NCBI GenBank assembly: GCA_016190985.1
Contig: JACPPI010000009.1
Coordinates: 1-64,000, forward strand
From: Opitutia bacterium
GTDB lineage: Bacteria > Verrucomicrobiota > Verrucomicrobiia > Opitutales > Opitutaceae
Reading direction: 5' to 3'
Length of the DNA: 64,000 bases
Below the pieces are notes generated by a model that ran no database searches, had not been told where the DNA came from, and worked only from the letters and a program-made list of their open reading frames with translations. This document shows, piece by piece, positions 3,901-29,364 of this stretch (positions are counted from its first letter, which is position 1; every line of letters begins with the position of its first letter). The position numbers and the translations under genes were made by a program.

Positions 3901-5160
3901 GTCGGGATAGGCGGGGGCGGCCGGCTTGGCCGCGAGGGCCTGTTTCGCGGTCGCGAGCTGGGACTCCAGGGCGGCGACATTGGCGCGCAGATCCGGGTAG
4001 GCGGGCGCGGCGTTGCGCGCGGCCTCCTTCGCTTCCGTTAACGCGGCTATTTCCTGTTTGGCGCGCGTGGCTTCGGAGCCCAAGGAGGCGAGGGCGGACT
4101 CGAGTTCCGCGACGCGGCCGGTGAGATCGGGATACTTTGGCGCGGCGGGTGTGGCGGCGAGCGCCTGTTCGGCGGCGGCCCTGGCCCGGGTGACGGCGGC
4201 GAGCTGTTGTTCGAGCGCCGCCTTCTGGTCGTTGACCTTGTTGAGCGTGGCCTCGACCTGCTGGCCGAACTGGCGCGCGGCCTCAAGTTCGGCGGCGGCG
4301 TTGGCGGCGACGCGGGCGCGGTCGTCGTTGACCTTGTTCAGGGTGTCCTCGACCTGGCGGCCGAACTGGCGGGCGGCCTCGAGTTCGGTCAGCGCGGCGG
4401 CGAGTTCGCGGGTCCTGGCCTCCAGCGCCGTGTTGTCCGGGGCGGGCTTGGGCGCGTTCGCCAGCGCGGCGCGTTCCTGTTGGGCGCGTTCCAGCTCGGA
4501 TTTCAGCGCGGCGGCGCTGCTTTCCAGCGCGGCGGTCCGGGCAGTGGCGGCGCGAAGCTGCTCCTGCAGGCCGAGGGTGGCGGCCTGGGCGTTTTTTTGG
4601 ATTTCCGCGGCCTGGTCGGCGAGGCGATCGCGATCGGTGCGGACGGCGAACAAATCGGCCGCGATTTCGCCGACCCGGGCGGAGTAGGTGTCGCGCTCCC
4701 GGCGCAGGCGGGCGACCGCCGGATCCTCGGCGCCGTCGGTGGGGGCCGCCGCCGCACCGGGCGCGGCGGGCTTGCTGTCCGCGAGGGCGGCCGGTGCCGG
4801 TGCGGCGGTCCTGACAGCGGCAGGAACGGCGGGAGTCATGCCGAGCGCGACCTTGCGTTCCGCGATGCGCTGGCGCGCGGTCTCCCTGGCGGCCTTGTCG
4901 AGCGCGGCCGCGACATTGTCGAGAGCGCGGCCGCGGGCGCCGTTTTCCCGGGCGAGGGAGAGCCAGACAAACGCCTCGATCGGATCCCGGGCGACGCCCT
5001 TGCCGTCCACGTAGGCCAGGCCGAGGTTGTATTGGGCGATGCCGTTGCCTTTCTCAGCCTTGGCGCGGAGCGAGGCGATTTCGCTGCTCTCCTGGGCGGG
5101 GGCGAGATGAACGAGGGCGGCGGCGAACAAAAGGGCGGCGAGCGAGCGGAAAGTTTTCAT
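901..5160 (-). CDS. exported SEL1-like / long coiled-coil / LysM protein with 16 YPDL repeats
   Basis: About 1419 aa. I start at the ATG at 5160 because it opens a clean signal peptide (MKTFRSLAALLFAAALVHL); the frame runs 31 codons further upstream without such character. Order: signal peptide; a SEL1-like repeat (about residues 29-72, AQYNLGLAYVDGKGVARDP); Ala-rich linker; a very long alanine/glutamate coiled coil; C-terminal LysM (last ~50 residues, VVAAGDSLSRLSQRYYG) that should bind peptidoglycan. Within the coiled coil the unit A-A-P-x-Y-P-D-L-x-x-x-V-x-x-L-E recurs 16 times (about residues 340-1170), one copy W and one N variant. A periplasmic scaffold or spacer tethered to the wall is a reasonable inference; no catalytic domain is visible. 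Monocistronic. A 7-bp hairpin (863-869/880-886) lies just past the stop but lacks a T tract. Confidence 0.85.
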   Translation of the reverse strand: MKTFRSLAALLFAAALVHLAPAQESSEIASLRAKAEKGNGIAQYNLGLAYVDGKGVARDPIEAFVWLSLARENGARGRALDNVAAALDKAARETARQRIAERKVALGMTPAVPAAVRTAAPAPAALADSKPAAPGAAAAPTDGAEDPAVARLRRERDTYSARVGEIAADLFAVRTDRDRLADQAAEIQKNAQAATLGLQEQLRAATARTAALESSAAALKSELERAQQERAALANAPKPAPDNTALEARTRELAAALTELEAARQFGRQVEDTLNKVNDDRARVAANAAAELEAARQFGQQVEATLNKVNDQKAALEQQLAAVTRARAAAEQALAATPAAPKYPDLTGRVAELESALASLGSEATRAKQEIAALTEAKEAARNAAPAYPDLRANVAALESQLATAKQALAAKPAAPAYPDLRAQVGELEGRLAVANSAAEAAQQQIASLQQANSAAEAALTAARNAAPAYPDLRANVAALESQLASLSSENTRAKQEITALTKAKEEAQQALAAKPAWPDLRNQVERLESNLSAASAEAARARQDVAALTQAKDAAEKALAAKSPAPAYPDLSGRVADLEKQLAARPGAPAYPDLSARVAELEAAAATSIQKFGAAEQARAEVTRQFDDYKSATAAAQRERTTLLSNLKMLESDKAALRRQVEAATGESNQLRTQVATLKAQAAAPKPAAPAYPDLANRVRELENQLTRANAELSAAGPAKADLSGRVAGLEAALAAARNAAPAYPDLRGQVGELEARLAASTSAAQQQIASLQQAKSAVESALAAQPAAPSYPDLSGRVSELESALATAKQQLAAKPAAPRYPDLSARVAELEATLAAKPAAPAYPDLSGRVSELETALAAARNAAPAYPNLAAKVAELETKLAGVSAEAAAARAAAPAYPDLSGKVAELTGEVAQLRTDRERMQKLLADSGRQLADMSSEAARAKRDVVALTKAKEEAAAANRSRPVAPPGYLERLRELEAALAQAKTAPAYPDLSGRVSELESQLAKAADLSAVALAKAEAAQTALRQQLAAAATVAQNAARSGGEAAQLRRERDELSGKATDLAGEVAQLRTDRERMVKMLAEAGRQMRDTSADSARVKELETQLAALGSEASRAKQEVAALTQAKEDARNAQNELRDTIARLEREKAELANARPIQAGAPAYPDLTNRVGELESQLARTQTELSAAGSAKADLSGRVRELEAQLAAPATATADTSGLEQKLADTESRLATALRGYATLQRERDTLAENAAKSAAAVAAERDALADRVASLSGQVEQLRASAQSSSGSTQAELARLSEAVATLQRTSAQSTRETAAARALAQQLQGANAVLAGENYQLKTMLARTTGGPAPTAPVAAPTAAPAVRTHVVAAGDSLSRLSQRYYGTPGRWQEIYSANATLLGPNGVLRVGTELRIP

Positions 5161-5249
5161 GCGGCAGGCGGGTGGGTGGACGGATACTTTTGTCCGGCTG
5201 ACGGCCCGGCTGCAAGCCCGCCCGCAGGTCGCAGGAAAAAAATATCCGG

Positions 5250-6773
5250 TCAAACCGGGCTTTGCCCGGCAGCCGGCGGGTGTGGGCGGCCGGCGGGCGA
5301 CGGCAGGTGTCGCGCGGCCAGGGCGTGAAACGCCGCCACCTGCCGGGCTTGCCAGGCGCCGTCATGGCCGAGCAGCGGGGCGATGAACGCCGCGACCCGC
5401 GGGGCCGCCGTCATCGCGGTCCGCGCATCCTCGTGAAGCGCGCGGGTGCGGCGCGCGAGCACGTCCTCCACGGTGCGGGCCATGGTGATCCGCACGGCGG
5501 CGGCCAGCAGCGCGTCGTCGCACGCGGCGCCGGCGCCGCGCGGCGGCAGCGGATCCGGCACCGGCAGCGCCGCCGTGCGACAGGGGCGGGCCGGCAGCCC
5601 CGCGAGAGTGGCTGCGCGGGTTACCACGTCCTCGGCCATCCGGCGCGCGGTCGTCCATTTGCCGCCGGCGATCGTCACGAGGCCGGAGGGCGACACGGTG
5701 ATGACGTGGTCGCGCGACAATGCGCTGGTGGGGCCGCCACCGCCCTTCATGAGCGGGCGCAGGCCGGCGAAGGCGCTGAGCACGTCGGCGTGGACTGGCG
5801 CGCGGGCAAGGTAGCGCGCGGCGTGCCGGAGGAGGTAGTCCACCTCCGTCGCGCCGGGGGTGGGTTCGCGCGCGATCTCCTTCACCTCCGTGTCCGTGGT
5901 GCCGAGCAGCACCCGCCCGTGCCACGGGATGGCGAAGAGCACCCGCCCGTCGCTGGTCCGGGGGATGAGCAACGCCGTGTCGCCCGGCAGGAACTCGCGC
6001 GGCAGCACGAGGTGCGCGCCCTGGCTGGGCGCGAGGCGCGGCGCGGCGGCGGCCTCGTCCAGCCGGCGCAGTTCGTCGGAGAACACGCCGGTGGCGTTGA
6101 TGACGGCGCGCGCCCCGGCCTCGAACGTCTCGCCGGTCTCCTCGTCGCGGAGCACCGCGCCGGCGATCCGCCCGCCGGCCTTGAGCAGGGAGGTGACGGG
6201 CGCGTAGTTGAGCAGGGGGCCGCCACCGCCCTTCATGAGCGGGCGCAGGCCGGCGAAGGCGCTGAGCACGTCGGCGTGGACTGGCGCGCGGGCAAGGTAG
6301 CGCGCGGCGTGCCGGAGGAGATAGTCCACCTCCGTCGCGCCGGGGGTGGGTTCGCGCGCGATCTCCTTCACCTCCGTGTCCGTGGTGCCGAGCAACACCC
6401 GCCCGTGCCACGGGATGGCGAAGAGCACCCGCCCGTCGCTGGTCCGGGGGATGAGCAACGCCGTGTCGCCCGGCAGGAACTCGCGCGGATGGACGAGGCC
6501 GGGCGCGTTGCGCAACAGCCGGGTGCGCTCGAGCAGCGCGGAGCGGACGAGCCCGAGCCGGCCCTGGCGCAGGTAGCGCACGCCGCCGTGGATGAGCTTC
6601 GTGCTGCGGCTCGAGGTGCCCGAGGCGAAATCGCCGCGTTCCACCAGCAGCGTCCGGTAGCCGCGGCTGGCGGCATCGAGCGCGGCCGCGAGTCCGGTGG
6701 CCCCGCCGCCGATGATCAGCACGTCCCATCTCCGTCCCTCGCGCAACCGGCCGATGGCTTCGCCGCGGTTCAT
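5250..6773 (-). CDS. glpD: glycerol-3-phosphate dehydrogenase, FAD-dependent, internally rearranged
   Basis: 507 aa. The N-terminus has the FAD-binding Rossmann motif ([20 protein letters not shown]) and the [15 protein letters not shown] stretch typical of GlpD, and the C-terminal half has [20 protein letters not shown]. It should oxidise glycerol-3-phosphate to dihydroxyacetone phosphate at the membrane. The start ATG (6773) overlaps the glpK stop by four bases (ATGA), so the two are translationally coupled. Oddity: residues ~96-186 are a near-exact copy of residues ~258-348. The copy sits where GlpD proteins normally carry a different sequence between the 'LVHP' and 'LLNYAPVT' stretches, while overall length stays normal. 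Part of the FAD/substrate domain is therefore missing and activity is doubtful, unless this is an assembly error. Confidence 0.85.
5730..6488. repeat. 273-bp direct repeat inside glpD (5730-6002 and 6216-6488)
   Basis: Two copies 486 bp apart, same orientation. By eye I find only two mismatches in 273 positions, both synonymous. The unit is exactly 91 codons, so the frame is kept. Its edges are sharp: the bases differ immediately outside on both sides. The copy at 5730-6002 is in the position expected for the family; the one at 6216-6488 is the displaced copy. Confidence 0.95.
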
Positions 6774-8281
6774 GGAGTCAGGCCAAGGCCCGGCCTGGGC
6801 CGGGCCGGGCCTCGCGCGCGCTCCACGGCGCGGTGCCACCCGGCGAGCTGGCGGCGGGTGGTGGCGGCGGCGGCCGTCGCCCGGAAGGTGCGGTCGGCGG
6901 ACCAGAGTTGGGCGATCTCCGCGCGGTCCTTCCAGAAGCCGGTGGCGAGGCCCGCGAGGCAGGCCGCGCCGAGCGCCGTCGTCTCGCTGGTGCGCGGGCG
7001 CACGACGGGCACACGGAGCAGGTCGGCCTGGAACTGCATGAGCGCGTCGTTTCCGACCGCGCCGCCGTCCACCCGCAGCTCGCGGAGCCGGCGGCCGGCG
7101 TCGGCCTCCATGGCGCGGAGCAGGTCGGCGCTCTGGTAGGCGATGCTCTCGAGCGCGGCGCGGGCGAGGTGGCCGGCGTTGCTGCCGCGCGTGAGGCCGG
7201 TGATGAGGCCGCGCGCGCCGGCGTCCCAATGCGGCGCGCCGAGCCCGGCAAAGGCCGGCACGAGGTAGACCCCGCCGTTGTCGGGCACGCGGGCGGCGAG
7301 CTTCTCCACGTCGACGGACTTTGCGATGAGGCCGAGGCCGTCGCGGAGCCATTGCACGACGGCGCCGCCGATGAACACGCTGCCTTCGAGGGCGTATTCG
7401 GTCCGGCCGCCGATGCGCCAGGCGATGGTGGTGAGCAGATGGTTTTTCGAAACGACGGGCTTCGCGCCCGTGTGCATGAGCAGGAAACAACCGGTGCCGT
7501 AGGTGTTTTTCGCCATGCCGGGCGACCAGCACGCCTGGCCGAAGAGCGCGGCCTGCTGGTCGCCGGCGATGCCGCTGATCGGCACGCCGCGCAGGGCGGG
7601 GATCGTGCTGACCTCGCCGAAGACGCCGCTGCTGGCCCGGACCTCGGGCAAGGCCTCGCGCGGGATGCGGAGGATTTTGAGAAGTTCGCTATCCCAGTCG
7701 CCGGTGCGGAGATTGAGCAGGAGGGTGCGCGAGGCGTTGGAGGCATCGGTGGCGTGGACGCGGCCGCCGGTGAGCTGCCAGAGCAGCCAGGTGTCGACGG
7801 TGCCGAAGGCGAGTTCGCCGCGCTCGGCGCGGCGGCGCGCGCCGGGCACGTGGTCAAGCAGCCAGGCGAGTTTCGTGCCGGAAAAATACGGATCGAGCAG
7901 CAAGCCGGTCTTTTGCCGGAAAAGCGGCTCGAGGCCGCGGCGCTTGAGCTGCGTGCAATGGGCGGCCGTGCGCCGGTCCTGCCACACGATGGCGCGGTGG
8001 AGGGGCCGGCCGGTGCGGCGGTCCCAGAGCAGGGTGGTCTCGCGCTGGTTGGTGAGGCCGAGGGCGGCGATGTTCCTCGCGCCGACGCGGGCGACCGCGC
8101 GGGTGGCGCACTGCCGGATGGTCGCCCACAGGTCGCGCGGGTCGTGCTCGACCCAACCCGGTTGAGGGAAGTGTTGTGCGAACTCGCGTTGCGCCACCAC
8201 CCGCGCGCGCCCGCGGCGGTCGAACGCGAGGGCGCGGGACGACGTGGTGCCTTGGTCGAGGGCGAGGACGCAGCGGGGCAT
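6770..8281 (-). CDS. glpK: glycerol kinase
   Basis: 503 aa FGGY-family kinase that phosphorylates glycerol with ATP. The ATG at 8281 is chosen because the protein then begins [19 protein letters not shown], the canonical N-terminal phosphate-binding loop; the frame upstream of it has no GlpK character. Other family signatures: the [17 protein letters not shown] region near residue 80, [16 protein letters not shown] in the middle, and the [18 protein letters not shown] nucleotide-binding region about residue 400. It is the middle gene of a small operon: a 51-aa membrane peptide ends four bases upstream and glpD overlaps its stop. No Shine-Dalgarno is evident before the ATG, which fits translational coupling to the upstream peptide. 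Confidence 0.95.
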
Positions 8282-25606: not shown

Positions 25607-25716
25607 TCTTGAGAAGGCCGGGGAGTCCTGCGATACATCGCCACGGTCACTATCCGTTCCCAAACCCGCCCGGGATTCCCTGTGAATTCCCGGCTCACCA
25701 AGAAAGGAGTGCCGTC

Positions 25717-26202
25717 ATGAGTTCCCTGCCCGTGCCACCTGACCGCCGACATGCGATCAAGCAAATCGGTGTTACTGTCCTCGGATTTTTTGGCCTGCGT
25801 TCCCTGCTCAAGGCCCGCGACCCGGCGGAAGGCGTCTTTGCCACCTCCCTGCTGCGGGACACCCCGCGCATCCATTTTCAGGAGGGCTATTACGACCAGC
25901 GCACCCAGCTCTACCATGACCGAAAAACCGGCCGGCCCATGTTCGCCGCTGAAAAGGAGGCGGCGGAAAAAGCCGAGCCCAAGAAAAGGCTTTCCGACCA
26001 GGAGCTGGCCGACCTGCTGGACCGGGGTCGTTTCATCGACTCCCGCCCGTTGGAAAAATTCTACGCCTCCGGCCTGCGCAACACCTGGAGCCGCGTGGTC
26101 ACGCTGTCCACCTCGCAGTGCTGCCCGATCATCACCGATACGGAACGCGACACCACGGCCGATGACAACGGCACGGAGGAAGCCGACCCCCACAAGATCT
26201 GA
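25717..26202 (+). CDS. candidate graspetide (omega-ester/amide RiPP) precursor, unusual long leader
   Basis: 161 aa, ATG at 25717 with AGAAAGGAG eight bases upstream. The N-terminus has a twin-arginine followed by a hydrophobic helix (DRRHAIKQIGVTVLGFFGL), like a Tat or membrane signal. The middle is charged and repetitive. The last ~30 residues are dense in Thr, Asp and Glu (PIITDTERDTTADDNGTEEA) after a CC pair, the residue mix that ATP-grasp ligases of the MvdC/MvdD group join as side-chain esters or amides. The gene lies 80 bases upstream of exactly such a ligase. No family is recognised for the leader. Calling the tail the core peptide is inference from composition and position. Confidence 0.6.
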   Translation: MSSLPVPPDRRHAIKQIGVTVLGFFGLRSLLKARDPAEGVFATSLLRDTPRIHFQEGYYDQRTQLYHDRKTGRPMFAAEKEAAEKAEPKKRLSDQELADLLDRGRFIDSRPLEKFYASGLRNTWSRVVTLSTSQCCPIITDTERDTTADDNGTEEADPHKI

Positions 26203-26282
26203 GGCTTCCGTTTCCGGCCACGCGTTTCCGATCTTTTCCCCGGCCCCCGCCGCAAAGACCGCCGCCCTGGATTCATCGCGCG

Positions 26283-27251
26283 ATTAATTCGAAGATATTA
26301 ATCATCACCCAGGAGTTCGATCCCCATGCCGACTACATGGTGACCTTGCTGCGGCACCACGGCATCGGCTGCCTGCGTTGGGCCACGAACCACTTCCCGC
26401 TCCGCTCTTCCCTCTGCCTGGAATCGCACGGCGCGGAGCGGCACGGCTGGGTCAATCTGGGCGAAGCGCCGACCGATCTGAACGAAATCCGCAGCGTCTG
26501 GTATCGGCACCCGGCGCCCTTCGCCCTCGCCCCCAATCTCACCGCTGATGAAAAGCGGTTTGCCTCCGGCGAAGTGCGCGCGGCCTTTTATGGCCTGTTG
26601 CGCACACTGGATTGTTTCTGGATCAACCACCCGGATCGGGTGCAGATCGCCGAGTCGAAAATGCTTCAGCTGAAGGTGGCGCAAATGATCGGCTTCGAAA
26701 TCCCCCGCAGCCTGGTCACGAACGATCCCGCGGCCGTCCGCGCGTTTTTCGACGCCTGCGACCGGCGCATCGTCTACAAAGCCTTTCGCTCGGGCTTTTT
26801 TGCCGAGACGGACCGGGCCGTTTATACGACCCCTCTCACCGAGGAACACCTGGAGCGCATCCAGCAGATCCGCAACACGCCGGGTATTTTCCAGGCCCAT
26901 GTCGAAAAGCGGGCCGATCTGCGGGTGACCGTCATCGGGCGCAAGGTCTTCGCCGTGGAAATCCACTCCCAGGGGCTGGCGCAGGCCCGCGATGATTGGC
27001 GGTCGGTCGATGTCGAACAATTGCCCCACCACCCGCATCAGTTGCCCGAGCGCGTCGAGCAGCAGTGCCACCGGCTGCTGCAATATTTCGGCTTGGTGTA
27101 TGGGGCCATTGATCTGATCCTGACCCCCGACGGCCGGTATGTTTTTCTCGAAAACAACCCGAGCGGCCAGTTCGGCTGGGTCGAAGGCCGGACGGGCCTG
27201 CAATTGACCGAGTCCCTCGCCGAACTCCTCGTCGCCGGCCGCGTGTTGTAA
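26283..27251 (+). CDS. MvdC/MvdD-like ATP-grasp ligase (graspetide peptide macrocyclase), non-ATG start
   Basis: The homologous N-terminus (ILIITQEFDPHADYM) begins 14 codons before the first ATG (26337), and no ATG, GTG or TTG exists in frame between the upstream stop (26163) and that point. The start is therefore probably ATT at 26283 (322 aa) or another rare codon. Features: VWYRHPAPFAL (pre-ATP-grasp domain), KAFRSGFFAE (ATP lysine), VFAVEIHSQ, and YVFLENNPSGQFGWVEG (C-terminal acidic/Asn metal site; close to the MvdD consensus). It should form ester or amide bonds between side chains of a precursor peptide, using ATP. It is adjacent to the candidate precursor. No acetyltransferase or protease accompanies it. 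Confidence 0.85.
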   Translation: MNSKILIITQEFDPHADYMVTLLRHHGIGCLRWATNHFPLRSSLCLESHGAERHGWVNLGEAPTDLNEIRSVWYRHPAPFALAPNLTADEKRFASGEVRAAFYGLLRTLDCFWINHPDRVQIAESKMLQLKVAQMIGFEIPRSLVTNDPAAVRAFFDACDRRIVYKAFRSGFFAETDRAVYTTPLTEEHLERIQQIRNTPGIFQAHVEKRADLRVTVIGRKVFAVEIHSQGLAQARDDWRSVDVEQLPHHPHQLPERVEQQCHRLLQYFGLVYGAIDLILTPDGRYVFLENNPSGQFGWVEGRTGLQLTESLAELLVAGRVL

Positions 27252-27258
27252 CGCCGCG

Positions 27259-27366
27259 TCATATGGTCCGCTTCCGCAGGCGCACAATGAACACCAGCGC
27301 CGCGTCGGGCAGGAGCCATTTTAGGACAGGAAGAACTTCGCGTGGAAGGGCCGCTGTAGCACGGCG
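27259..27366 (-). pseudogene. 3' remnant of a short-chain dehydrogenase gene
   Basis: The minus-strand translation contains LKWLLPDAALVFIVRLRKR, matching the C-terminus of the intact SDR at 28392-29234 (FLKWLLPAAALSFITRLRK), and before a single-base frame break the upstream part (GPFHAKFF-like) continues in another frame. DNA alignment to 28392-28490 is obvious by eye with a one-base deletion. It is a broken leftover of a duplicated SDR 3' end, about 1.1 kb away in the same orientation. Confidence 0.75.
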
Positions 27367-27418: not shown

Positions 27419-27631
27419 ATGAGTGTTGCCGAACTCCAGAAGCGGATCACCCGGTTGAGCCCCATCAAGCGCAAGTCGGTGGCCAAGTTTGTTTCGTATA
27501 TCGAAAAGGTGGACGCGCCGGCCCGGAAAAAACGGTTGGCCCGCATCATGCGGGACATGGATGCCGGCCTGAAATACTCCCAGGCGCAGGTTGACGCCAT
27601 CCTGGCCCGCCACCCCCCGACCAGAGAATGA
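27419..27631 (+). CDS. putative antitoxin of a type II toxin-antitoxin pair
   Basis: 70 aa (MSVAELQKRITRLSPIKRKS), small, highly charged and predicted helical, with a K/R-rich middle and no hydrophobic segment. Its stop overlaps the start of the next gene (ATGA, 27628-27631), as in many antitoxin-toxin operons where the antitoxin comes first. It has no canonical AbrB, RHH or Xre motif that I can identify, so the antitoxin role rests on the partner and the arrangement. The start ATG is followed by a run of codons (AELQKRITRLSP) typical of the helical dimerisation end of such proteins. Confidence 0.6.
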   Translation: MSVAELQKRITRLSPIKRKSVAKFVSYIEKVDAPARKKRLARIMRDMDAGLKYSQAQVDAILARHPPTRE

Positions 27632-27882
27632 GGGCGTTTTCGCCGGCTTACTCGCAAGAGGCCCTCGATGCCTTGGTGGCGGCCTCGGGCTCTGCCCGCC
27701 GGCACGCCCGGGCCGTCATCGCCCAACTGTGCCGCTACCCTGATCGCATGGGGGATGCTCAACTGCCGCAGGCCGATCAACGCGACTTGCGCATCCGGAC
27801 TGACGATCATCTGGTGGTCTCCTATTGGGTGGACGATGCCGTGCGCGAGGTGCGGATCGTGACCATCGAGTGGACGGGCTGA
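27628..27882 (+). CDS. RelE/ParE-like toxin
   Basis: 84 aa, the usual length of the RelE fold. N-terminal strand and helix (FSPAYSQEALDALVAASG), a basic helix (RRHARAVIAQLCRYPD), then the strand pair around DLRIRTDDHLVVSYWV and VREVRIVTIEW, matching the beta-sheet order of ParE/RelE toxins. Members cleave mRNA at the ribosome (RelE) or act on gyrase (ParE); the sequence does not decide between them, as the catalytic basic residues of RelE are not obvious. Overlaps the antitoxin by four bases. A RelE-like assignment is from residue pattern, not from a search. Confidence 0.6.
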   Translation: MRAFSPAYSQEALDALVAASGSARRHARAVIAQLCRYPDRMGDAQLPQADQRDLRIRTDDHLVVSYWVDDAVREVRIVTIEWTG

Positions 27883-28391: not shown

Positions 28392-29234
28392 TCATTTGCG
28401 CAGCCGGGTGATGAAGCTGAGCGCGGCGGCGGGCAGGAGCCATTTCAGGAACAGGAAAAATTTCGCGTGGAACGGCCCGTTGTAGCGCGCCGCCGGGCTG
28501 TCCGCCATCAGGGCGCGCTCGACGAGCCGCGCGATGTCGTCGGGCTGGCCGGCGAAGGTGCGGAGCCGCTGCGTGCCCGCGTGATAGTCCTTGTAGAACG
28601 GCGCGTAGGGTCCGGCCTGGTCGACGATCTCCTTCGAGACCGCGTTGGCCGCATCCACGAACTCCGTGAGGATGAAACCGGGCCGGATGAGCGTCACGCG
28701 CACGCCAAAGGGTTTCAGCTCGCCGCGCAGGCCGTCGGTGATGGCCTCGAGCGCGTGCTTGGTGGAGTCGTAGACGGTCGACAGCGGCCGCGCGATCTTC
28801 CCGGCCACGGAGCCGATGTTGACGATGCAGCCGTCGCCGCGTTCGCGCATCTCGGGCACCACGAGCTGGGTGAGCGCGATGAGGGAAAACAAGTTGGTCT
28901 CGAAATTTTTCCGGATGGTCTCGACCGGCACGATCTCGACCGGACCGCGCGTGCCGTAGCCGGCGTTGTTCACGAGGCCGTCGATGCGGCCGAATTTCGC
29001 GCGCGCGGCCGCGACGAGCTTGCGGCGGTCGGCGTCGCTCGTGATGTCGCCCGCGACCGCCAGCACGTTGGCGCCCGAGGGATCCAGTTCGCGGGCGAGC
29101 GCCTCCAGCCGGTCCGGCCGACGCGCGGTGATGACGACCCTCGCCCCGCCGCGCGCGAGCCGCCGCGCCGTCGCCTCGCCGATGCCGGCCGAGGCGCCCG
29201 TGATGATGATGACCTGGCCGGTGAGAGCGCGCAT
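28392..29234 (-). CDS. short-chain dehydrogenase/reductase
   Basis: 280 aa, ATG at 29234 (MRALTGQVIIITGASAGIGE). Rossmann motif TGASAGIG for NAD(P), NNAGYGTR, the catalytic triad with YDSTK (Tyr, Lys) and the upstream Ser in INIGSVAG. An arginine after the Gly motif region (TARRPDRLEAL) favours NADP(H). The C-terminal ~45 residues (FHAKFFLFLKWLLPAAALSF) are hydrophobic and may anchor it to the membrane. Substrate not predictable. It is the first gene of a unit with tspO. A decayed copy of its 3' end lies downstream at 27259-27366. Confidence 0.9.
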   Translation of the reverse strand: MRALTGQVIIITGASAGIGEATARRLARGGARVVITARRPDRLEALARELDPSGANVLAVAGDITSDADRRKLVAAARAKFGRIDGLVNNAGYGTRGPVEIVPVETIRKNFETNLFSLIALTQLVVPEMRERGDGCIVNIGSVAGKIARPLSTVYDSTKHALEAITDGLRGELKPFGVRVTLIRPGFILTEFVDAANAVSKEIVDQAGPYAPFYKDYHAGTQRLRTFAGQPDDIARLVERALMADSPAARYNGPFHAKFFLFLKWLLPAAALSFITRLRK

Positions 29235-29364
29235 GAGTCTGAGATAGACGGAAACGCGCAAATTAACAGAATTTTGGTTCGGTCAGGCGGCCAATTGTGC
29301 CTACAGTGCCCTAAGATTCTCCCGCCCGCCGCGTATTACTCCCATCATCCATTCTATCAATCCC

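Follow-up and report, generated by a model that had tools for sequence, protein, structure and literature searches.

Fuscimiditide and the other graspimiditides (ThfA-ThfB, graspetide group 13) are the closest described counterparts of the locus analyzed here. They are made with a single ATP-grasp ligase, and their donor residues and acceptor residues are each spaced four apart around a loop of 10–12 residues. In the accessible part of PMC12291112, the esters of fuscimiditide are given as Thr3-Asp22 and Thr7-Asp18, the 10–12-residue range is given for the graspimiditide loops, and the native leader protease is called undetermined for all graspimiditides. The sequence RPFG is named as the key recognition element of the fuscimiditide precursor in the portion of PMC13003496 that is available, and the available portion of PMC8939145 describes leaders as tracking the ligase tree and containing a Phhx(1,2)h motif. 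Two further systems are relevant for comparison: TgmA/TgmB, represented by the protein families TIGR04186 (precursor) and TIGR04187 (ligase), and the microviridin ligases MdnB/MdnC and MvdC/MvdD.

Export signals are described as rare among RiPP precursors, and are shown for bufferins, in the part of PMC12452194 that could be accessed. Bufferins and DAG-RiPPs have N-terminal export signals of the Sec or lipoprotein kind and are modified by MNIO enzymes (PMC12452194 and the accessible part of PMC12636315); in bufferins the signal takes the place of the leader. The Tat pathway has been proposed for lanthipeptide display, with first attempts reported to have failed (PMC5686179, in part), and it has carried a modified peptide in engineered nisin phage display, but as a man-made fusion (PMC11048544, likewise in part). 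In the accessible parts of the sources on graspetides themselves, these peptides are cited among those exported by peptidase-ABC transporters, and the signal peptides that are discussed belong to neighboring lipoprotein-like proteins, not to precursors. We found no description of a graspetide precursor with an export-like front tag in the literature searched, which mostly comprised papers outside subscription, and an earlier notice is possible.

The window, a stretch of 64,000 nucleotides from the contig JACPPI010000009.1 of an Opitutia bacterium, contains what is very likely, judging from its sequence, a graspetide locus. Its two genes lie next to each other on the plus strand. The first (25717–26202) is preceded by a ribosome-binding-like AAGGAG at 25704–25709, opens with ATG, and remains open over its full length, so that the 161-residue protein that had been placed just upstream of the ligase is confirmed; the second (26283–27251) encodes the ligase. 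The reading that we consider likely is that of a two-gene graspetide cassette, probably acquired horizontally, which belongs to a small family in which a targeting-like segment stands ahead of an ordinary leader.

The ligase frame consists of 322 codons plus a stop, is open throughout, and includes both of the motifs, VFAVEIHSQ and FLENNPSGQF, on which the preliminary description had based an MvdC/MvdD-type assignment. That assignment agrees with an MvdD pre-ATP-grasp domain scoring above the Pfam cut-off and with the structural matches to MdnC and CdnC. In the profile search, the top-scoring family is TIGR04187 (TgmB-like peptide maturases) with 295.8 bits and an E-value of 3.5e-88, which falls short of the family cut-off of 350; the scores for MvdD (234.2) and MvdC (209) are both lower. 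The AlphaFold model has a pLDDT of 91.6 and finds its best PDB match in the MdnC-MdnA complex (TM 0.87), the top matches being MdnC with its precursor, CdnC, AMdnB, PruB, MdnB, and PsnB. Residues K126, K166, R214, D277, E290, and N292 correspond to columns that are invariant across 20 rows of the family and are kept in the window's row. The fold of the enzyme is MdnC-like, and its nearest family is TgmB. It has fold and family in common with the microviridin ligases MdnB/MdnC and MvdC/MvdD, but a microviridin locus was rejected, because the precursor has no PFFARFL and the genome (99.47% complete, 34 contigs) contains a single ligase match where two would be expected. A RimK- or glutathione-synthase-like ligase was rejected on account of far lower scores, and a phage gene because the phage family that it matches (phrog_2599, 83.7 bits) is a general one of S6-ligase-like proteins and the precursor has no match.

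Related ligases are thinly spread. At an E-value of 0.001 or better, matches were obtained in 13 of the 387 phylum genomes and in 9 of the 252 family genomes, counts that include the window's own genome and several weak or partial matches, and none was obtained in the 20 other members of the genus that were examined. The ligase of one genome of the same family (G503) is the same as that of L066, an uncultured Opitutae bacterium. A scan of genome contigs with the ligase alignment, of which the best 80 of 213 relatives were kept, was headed among these 80 by the ligases of a Deltaproteobacteria bacterium (L085; 59% identity over the best segment) and a Syntrophaceae bacterium (L052; 54%). The L085 ligase is short by about 41 residues and has a mid-gene frame change (4387–4392), owing to either an assembly error or a broken copy. 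In a tree of 54 hand-chosen rows (L052–L084, L085, 19 others, and the window), the ligases of the window, L052, and L085 form one clade with support of 100/99, nested in a clade of 15 rows (97/91) and one of 24 rows (97/94), the latter of which also includes TgmB proteins of Streptomyces plasmids.

The pairing of the two genes is conserved. Homologues of the 161-residue protein lie directly upstream of these two closest ligases (L052: 3382–3834; L085: 3492–3947; tblastn E-values of 5e-25 and 8e-27), and the window's protein aligns with them at about 40% identity. When the alignment of the three sequences was used as a query, it matched two of six chosen genomes, namely those of L052 and L085, one of the 23 genomes from the class of L052 (its own), and two of 198 sampled from the L085 phylum, again L052 and L085, whose genomes therefore share one phylum. 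Searched against 288 genomes of its own phylum, the window's precursor had matches in 72 at E-values up to 1, of which only its own copy is convincing, the next best having an E-value of 0.004 over 48 residues. No relatives were found in the viral contigs or plasmids searched. The family, as found, comprises three sequences, all of which adjoin a ligase, and no copy without one was found in any of the 288, 6, 23, and 198 genomes; the co-occurrence with MvdC/MvdD-type ligases that the preliminary description had proposed as a check is borne out, and the widespread occurrence without a ligase that would have spoken against it was not seen.

That the upstream protein is not a substrate at all, and instead an unrelated protein with an acidic tail by chance, is highly improbable. 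It is true that it has no Pfam or NCBIfam match above cut-off, and that, with 161 residues, it exceeds the annotated tgmA proteins of L032–L034 (72–98 residues); neither it nor its two relatives match TIGR04186, to which the tgmA protein of L032, used as a control, scores 47.7 bits. Against this, the pairing is kept in genomes of two phyla, every copy found is next to a ligase, and the leader gives a profile match. Family, fold, tree, conserved pairing, and leader together support a graspetide ligase with its precursor, of which the cross-linking would be the expected outcome.

The leader occupies residues 38–78 (25828–25950) and reads GVFA....DTP......GYYD...QLY, a pattern that spans residues 38–70 and is followed by PMFAA. 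In 12 precursors from the same ligase clade, a [PL][FW][AG] element likewise precedes a YDxxxQ-like one. When the leader parts of the three precursors were compared with these 12 TgmA-like leaders by hhalign, the score was 38.2 (probability 92), with a maximum of 18.9 in 200 column shuffles; the window's leader alone scored 21.1, compared with at most 15.4 in 200 shuffles, at a probability of only 16.8. The set of 12 was picked by eye and consists of L058 and 11 members of a list obtained with a regular expression in 15 of 112 loci, from which L005, L114, L117, L066 (whose ligase is that of L024), and one of the two L059 frames were left out. By this profile comparison, the window has an ordinary graspetide leader, contrary to the preliminary view that no typical leader motif is present. 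A GG-type leader was rejected, as the precursor has no Gly-Gly.

The leader pattern also follows the ligase tree. The original expression misses the GYYD form of the window, L052, L085, and L058, and it was repeated on the 53 other loci of the tree with Y allowed. An upstream frame with the Y-D-xxx-Q pattern was then found for 15 of the other 23 members of the 24-row clade and for none of the 30 remaining rows. The eight clade rows in which no such frame was found are L049, L057, L061, L063, L064, L065, L086, and L099, among which L061 has no upstream DNA in its record. A separate listing of open frames covered L052–L084, 33 of the 80 loci kept from the contig scan. TgmA/TgmB shares with the window the best-scoring ligase family and the [PL][FW][AG] then YDxxxQ leader, and differs in that the window's ligase is below the TIGR04187 cut-off and its precursor is without a TIGR04186 match. 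Six Chloroflexota loci (L053, L055, L056, L058, L059, and L060) and the Opitutae loci L024/L066 have the same leader and ligases of the same 24-row clade, but have other cores and, by eye, no Tat-like segment, and their precursors are mostly shorter, that of L058 being 166 residues long.

Between leader and core lies a linker (residues 79–122; 25951–26082) with a conserved LSxxxLxxLL, which is helical in the precursor model, a model of low confidence (pLDDT 53.6). The core region is assigned to residues 123–150 (26083–26166) and contains T/S129, T132, S/T133, CCPIITD at 135–141, D145, D149, and D150. As described earlier, the CC pair is followed by a tail dense in Thr, Asp, and Glu (TDTERDTTADDNGTEEA). 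The proposal that this acidic tail is the core holds in part: TDxxxDxxxDD is conserved across the three precursors, but the last 11 residues, NGTEEADPHKI (151–161; 26167–26199), are absent from both relatives, which end right after DD. The conserved core sets in ahead of the CC pair and has D150 as its last residue.

All three cores share the donors T/S129 and S/T133 and the acceptors D145 and D149 around an 11-residue loop with CCPIITD. When residues 126–150 were queried, in all three rows at once, for a spacing of four between donors and likewise between acceptors, with 10–12 residues in the loop, exactly one frame fitted (129, 133/145, 149, loop 11), and any such frame arose in 128 of 20000 column shuffles. 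Because the query was framed after the spacing of fuscimiditide was known, this is support rather than proof. The spacing of the window's core equals that of fuscimiditide within one residue. T132 could serve as an alternative inner donor to residue 133. Compared with fuscimiditide, the window differs in its Tat-like front segment, its conserved CC in the loop, and the linker between leader and core. Among the neighboring frames of the window, L052, and L085, no PIMT methyltransferase was recognized by eye.

Ahead of the leader, residues 1–37 (25717–25827) form a Tat-like or membrane-targeting segment, a role suggested by its sequence features. The twin arginine and hydrophobic helix that had been noticed at the N-terminus correspond to R10-R11 and a hydrophobic stretch with its best 15 residues at 17–31; R10, R11, and K15 are invariant, and the arrangement is kept in all three precursors and is therefore not noise. 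The segment reads NRRGFLK in L085 and ends in ANA right before the leader, DRRGVLK in L052 and ends in AEA at the same place, and DRRHAIK in the window, where it ends in PAE and has no AxA. By the features expected of a Tat substrate (an RRxFLK-like motif, a hydrophobic stretch, and an AxA end), the closest fit is thus found in L085 and L052, and the window's segment is degenerate. In place of the single odd leader of over 120 residues that was first proposed, the N-terminal part therefore resolves into three pieces: a targeting-like segment, then an ordinary leader, and finally a linker. Bufferin precursors, in which the signal replaces the leader, differ from the window's precursor in this respect, as the latter has both.

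It is possible, if on the doubtful side, that the product is an ordinary cytoplasmic graspetide, in which the N-terminal 37 residues simply begin a long leader and play no part in export. Length alone does not set this front part apart, because the leader pattern starts at residue 54 in the annotated TgmA proteins of L032 and L033 (about 53 residues before it), compared with about residue 58 in the window. The highest mean hydropathy over 19 residues is modest for a membrane anchor (1.34 in the window, 1.18 in L052, and 1.52 in L085), and the Tat model TIGR01409 matches only L085 of the three, at 11.6 with a cut-off of 16.7. Against this reading stand the invariant R10, R11, and K15, the retained hydrophobic stretch, and the AxA right before the leader in both relatives. 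Moreover, the pattern starts at residues 21–26 in 5 of the 12 frames of the leader set (L048, L055, L056, L059, and L060), so the front part is not needed. We regard a Tat-like front segment as a property of the precursor family at the level of sequence, and targeting as its putative function.

TatC is present in the genomes of both relatives. In the window's genome it was not found, the sole such case among 22 genomes tested, which include 12 congeners that all have TatC; TatA/B-type genes were present in all nine genomes tested for them, with two in the window's genome (both sets of genomes were chosen by hand). TatC has accordingly either been lost or lies in an assembly gap. From these sequence data, Tat export appears plausible in the two relatives, given their RRxFLK-like motif, AxA end, and TatC, and doubtful in the window's host. 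Downstream of the L052 ligase lies a gene for a 946-residue TPR/CHAT protein (5004–7844), and downstream of the L085 ligase one for a related TPR protein (42% identity over 527 aligned residues), the frame of which is cut off by the contig end ahead of any CHAT domain. Both proteins begin, by eye, with an apparent Sec signal. The L052 protein has a repeated VAPSDF motif near its N-terminus. No match to the TPR/CHAT protein was found within the window.

In the mechanism that we propose, the ligase would bind, in the cytoplasm, the GVFA...GYYDxxxQLY leader that the profile comparison identified. It would then join side chains of the core at the expense of ATP, most likely through two nested esters, S/T133-D145 as the inner and T/S129-D149 as the outer one. 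By analogy with the bonds of fuscimiditide, and given the frame in the three sequences, the resulting hairpin would display CCPIITD in its 11-residue loop. The front segment would subsequently send the cross-linked protein to or across the membrane, presumably by Tat in the two deltaproteobacterial relatives, and the neighboring TPR protein, with its CHAT protease domain in L052, may trim the exported product. In the window's host, the product would instead remain at the membrane, leave through Sec, or fail to be exported, because there is no AxA, TatC was not found, and the window has no TPR gene. The complete sequence of events, in which a graspetide receives its cross-links in the cytoplasm and, already folded by them, is exported by Tat, with an ordinary leader behind a cleavable signal, trimming by CHAT, and display of the Cys-Cys loop, is a tentative and rather speculative proposal. 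The combination of a Tat-like segment with a normal leader in genomes of two phyla, together with the TPR protein downstream in two of the three loci (CHAT seen in one), makes both the export route and the maturation protease directly testable. If Tat does carry the precursor, a natural RiPP would travel by a general pathway that exports folded proteins.

The start of the ligase gene deviates from expectation. The open frame at 26283–27251 stands as first described, but position 26283 is the beginning of an ATT, not of a usual start codon. No in-frame ATG, GTG, or TTG occurs from 26166 to 26334, and the first in-frame ATG is codon 19 (26337), initiation at which would remove β-strand 1 (residues 4–9 of the model). 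The ligases of L052 and L085 start with ATG shortly before KILIITQE; from this and from the position of β-strand 1, the ATT at 26283–26285 is the likeliest start. A ribosome-binding-like word ahead of 26283 was not found. AUU start codons occur in a few bacterial genes. The ATT may accordingly be such a rare AUU start, a sequence error, or a sign of decay.

The degenerate front segment, the failure to find TatC, and the missing usual ligase start raise the possibility that the copy in this genome is diverging or decaying. That the acquired cassette no longer works as a pair in this genome is nonetheless unlikely. Beyond the missing start codon and ribosome-binding-like word, the precursor continues for 11 codons beyond the point where its relatives stop and is without AxA, and TatC was not found in a nearly complete genome whose tested congeners all have it. 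Yet neither frame is interrupted, the ligase retains the columns that are invariant in its family, the third-position GC content is still above that of the other codon positions, and the two TatA/B-type genes mean that TatC may sit in an assembly gap.

The genomic setting of the cassette suggests a foreign origin. It lies on the plus strand, with uvrC before it and, after it, a small gene pair followed by the genes for TspO and the SDR protein. In 17 of 18 loci from congeners, the SDR gene was matched, wholly or in part, beyond the 3′ end of uvrC, within up to 1.5 kb, and TspO was also there in 10 of the 18; the cassette was found in none of them. Its third-position GC content is 0.78–0.80, compared with 0.90–0.95 in uvrC, cinA, the SDR gene, the DUF4139 gene, and a purB-like gene. 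As the value is also lowered in cbiX (0.82), cobA (0.84), and TspO (0.86), a foreign origin is likely rather than shown, and the cassette was probably gained by horizontal transfer.

The small pair at 27419–27882 is toxin-antitoxin-like, encodes proteins of 70 and 84 residues, and also has a low third-position GC content. Relatives of it (61% and 54%) lie after uvrC in L158, where the cassette is absent; the spot therefore takes up cargo, and the pair was rejected as a part of the cassette, for this reason and because it has no Pfam family above cut-off. Beside the cassette, 27265–27352 repeats a fragment from the 3′ end of the SDR gene (28392–29261) at 74–89% identity. Partial SDR matches are also present after uvrC in L151 and L155, and the repeat may mark repeated insertion at this spot.

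A few further ligase loci deserve mention in their own right. Three of them, L002 (833–2442), L003 (845–3413), and L025 (1033–3390), come from relatives of the window's genome. L003 and L025 contain repeat precursors with GTxTxTxxxAExxDSD-like units. A membrane-protein-like frame lies beside the ligase in all three, that of L003 being without a Pfam family above cut-off. Finally, upstream of a ligase on a Burkholderia stagnalis plasmid (L031; 1433–3001), a 522-residue protein combines an M43 peptidase domain with short Thr/Asp repeats at its C-terminus, which makes it a possible fusion of a graspetide core to a peptidase.
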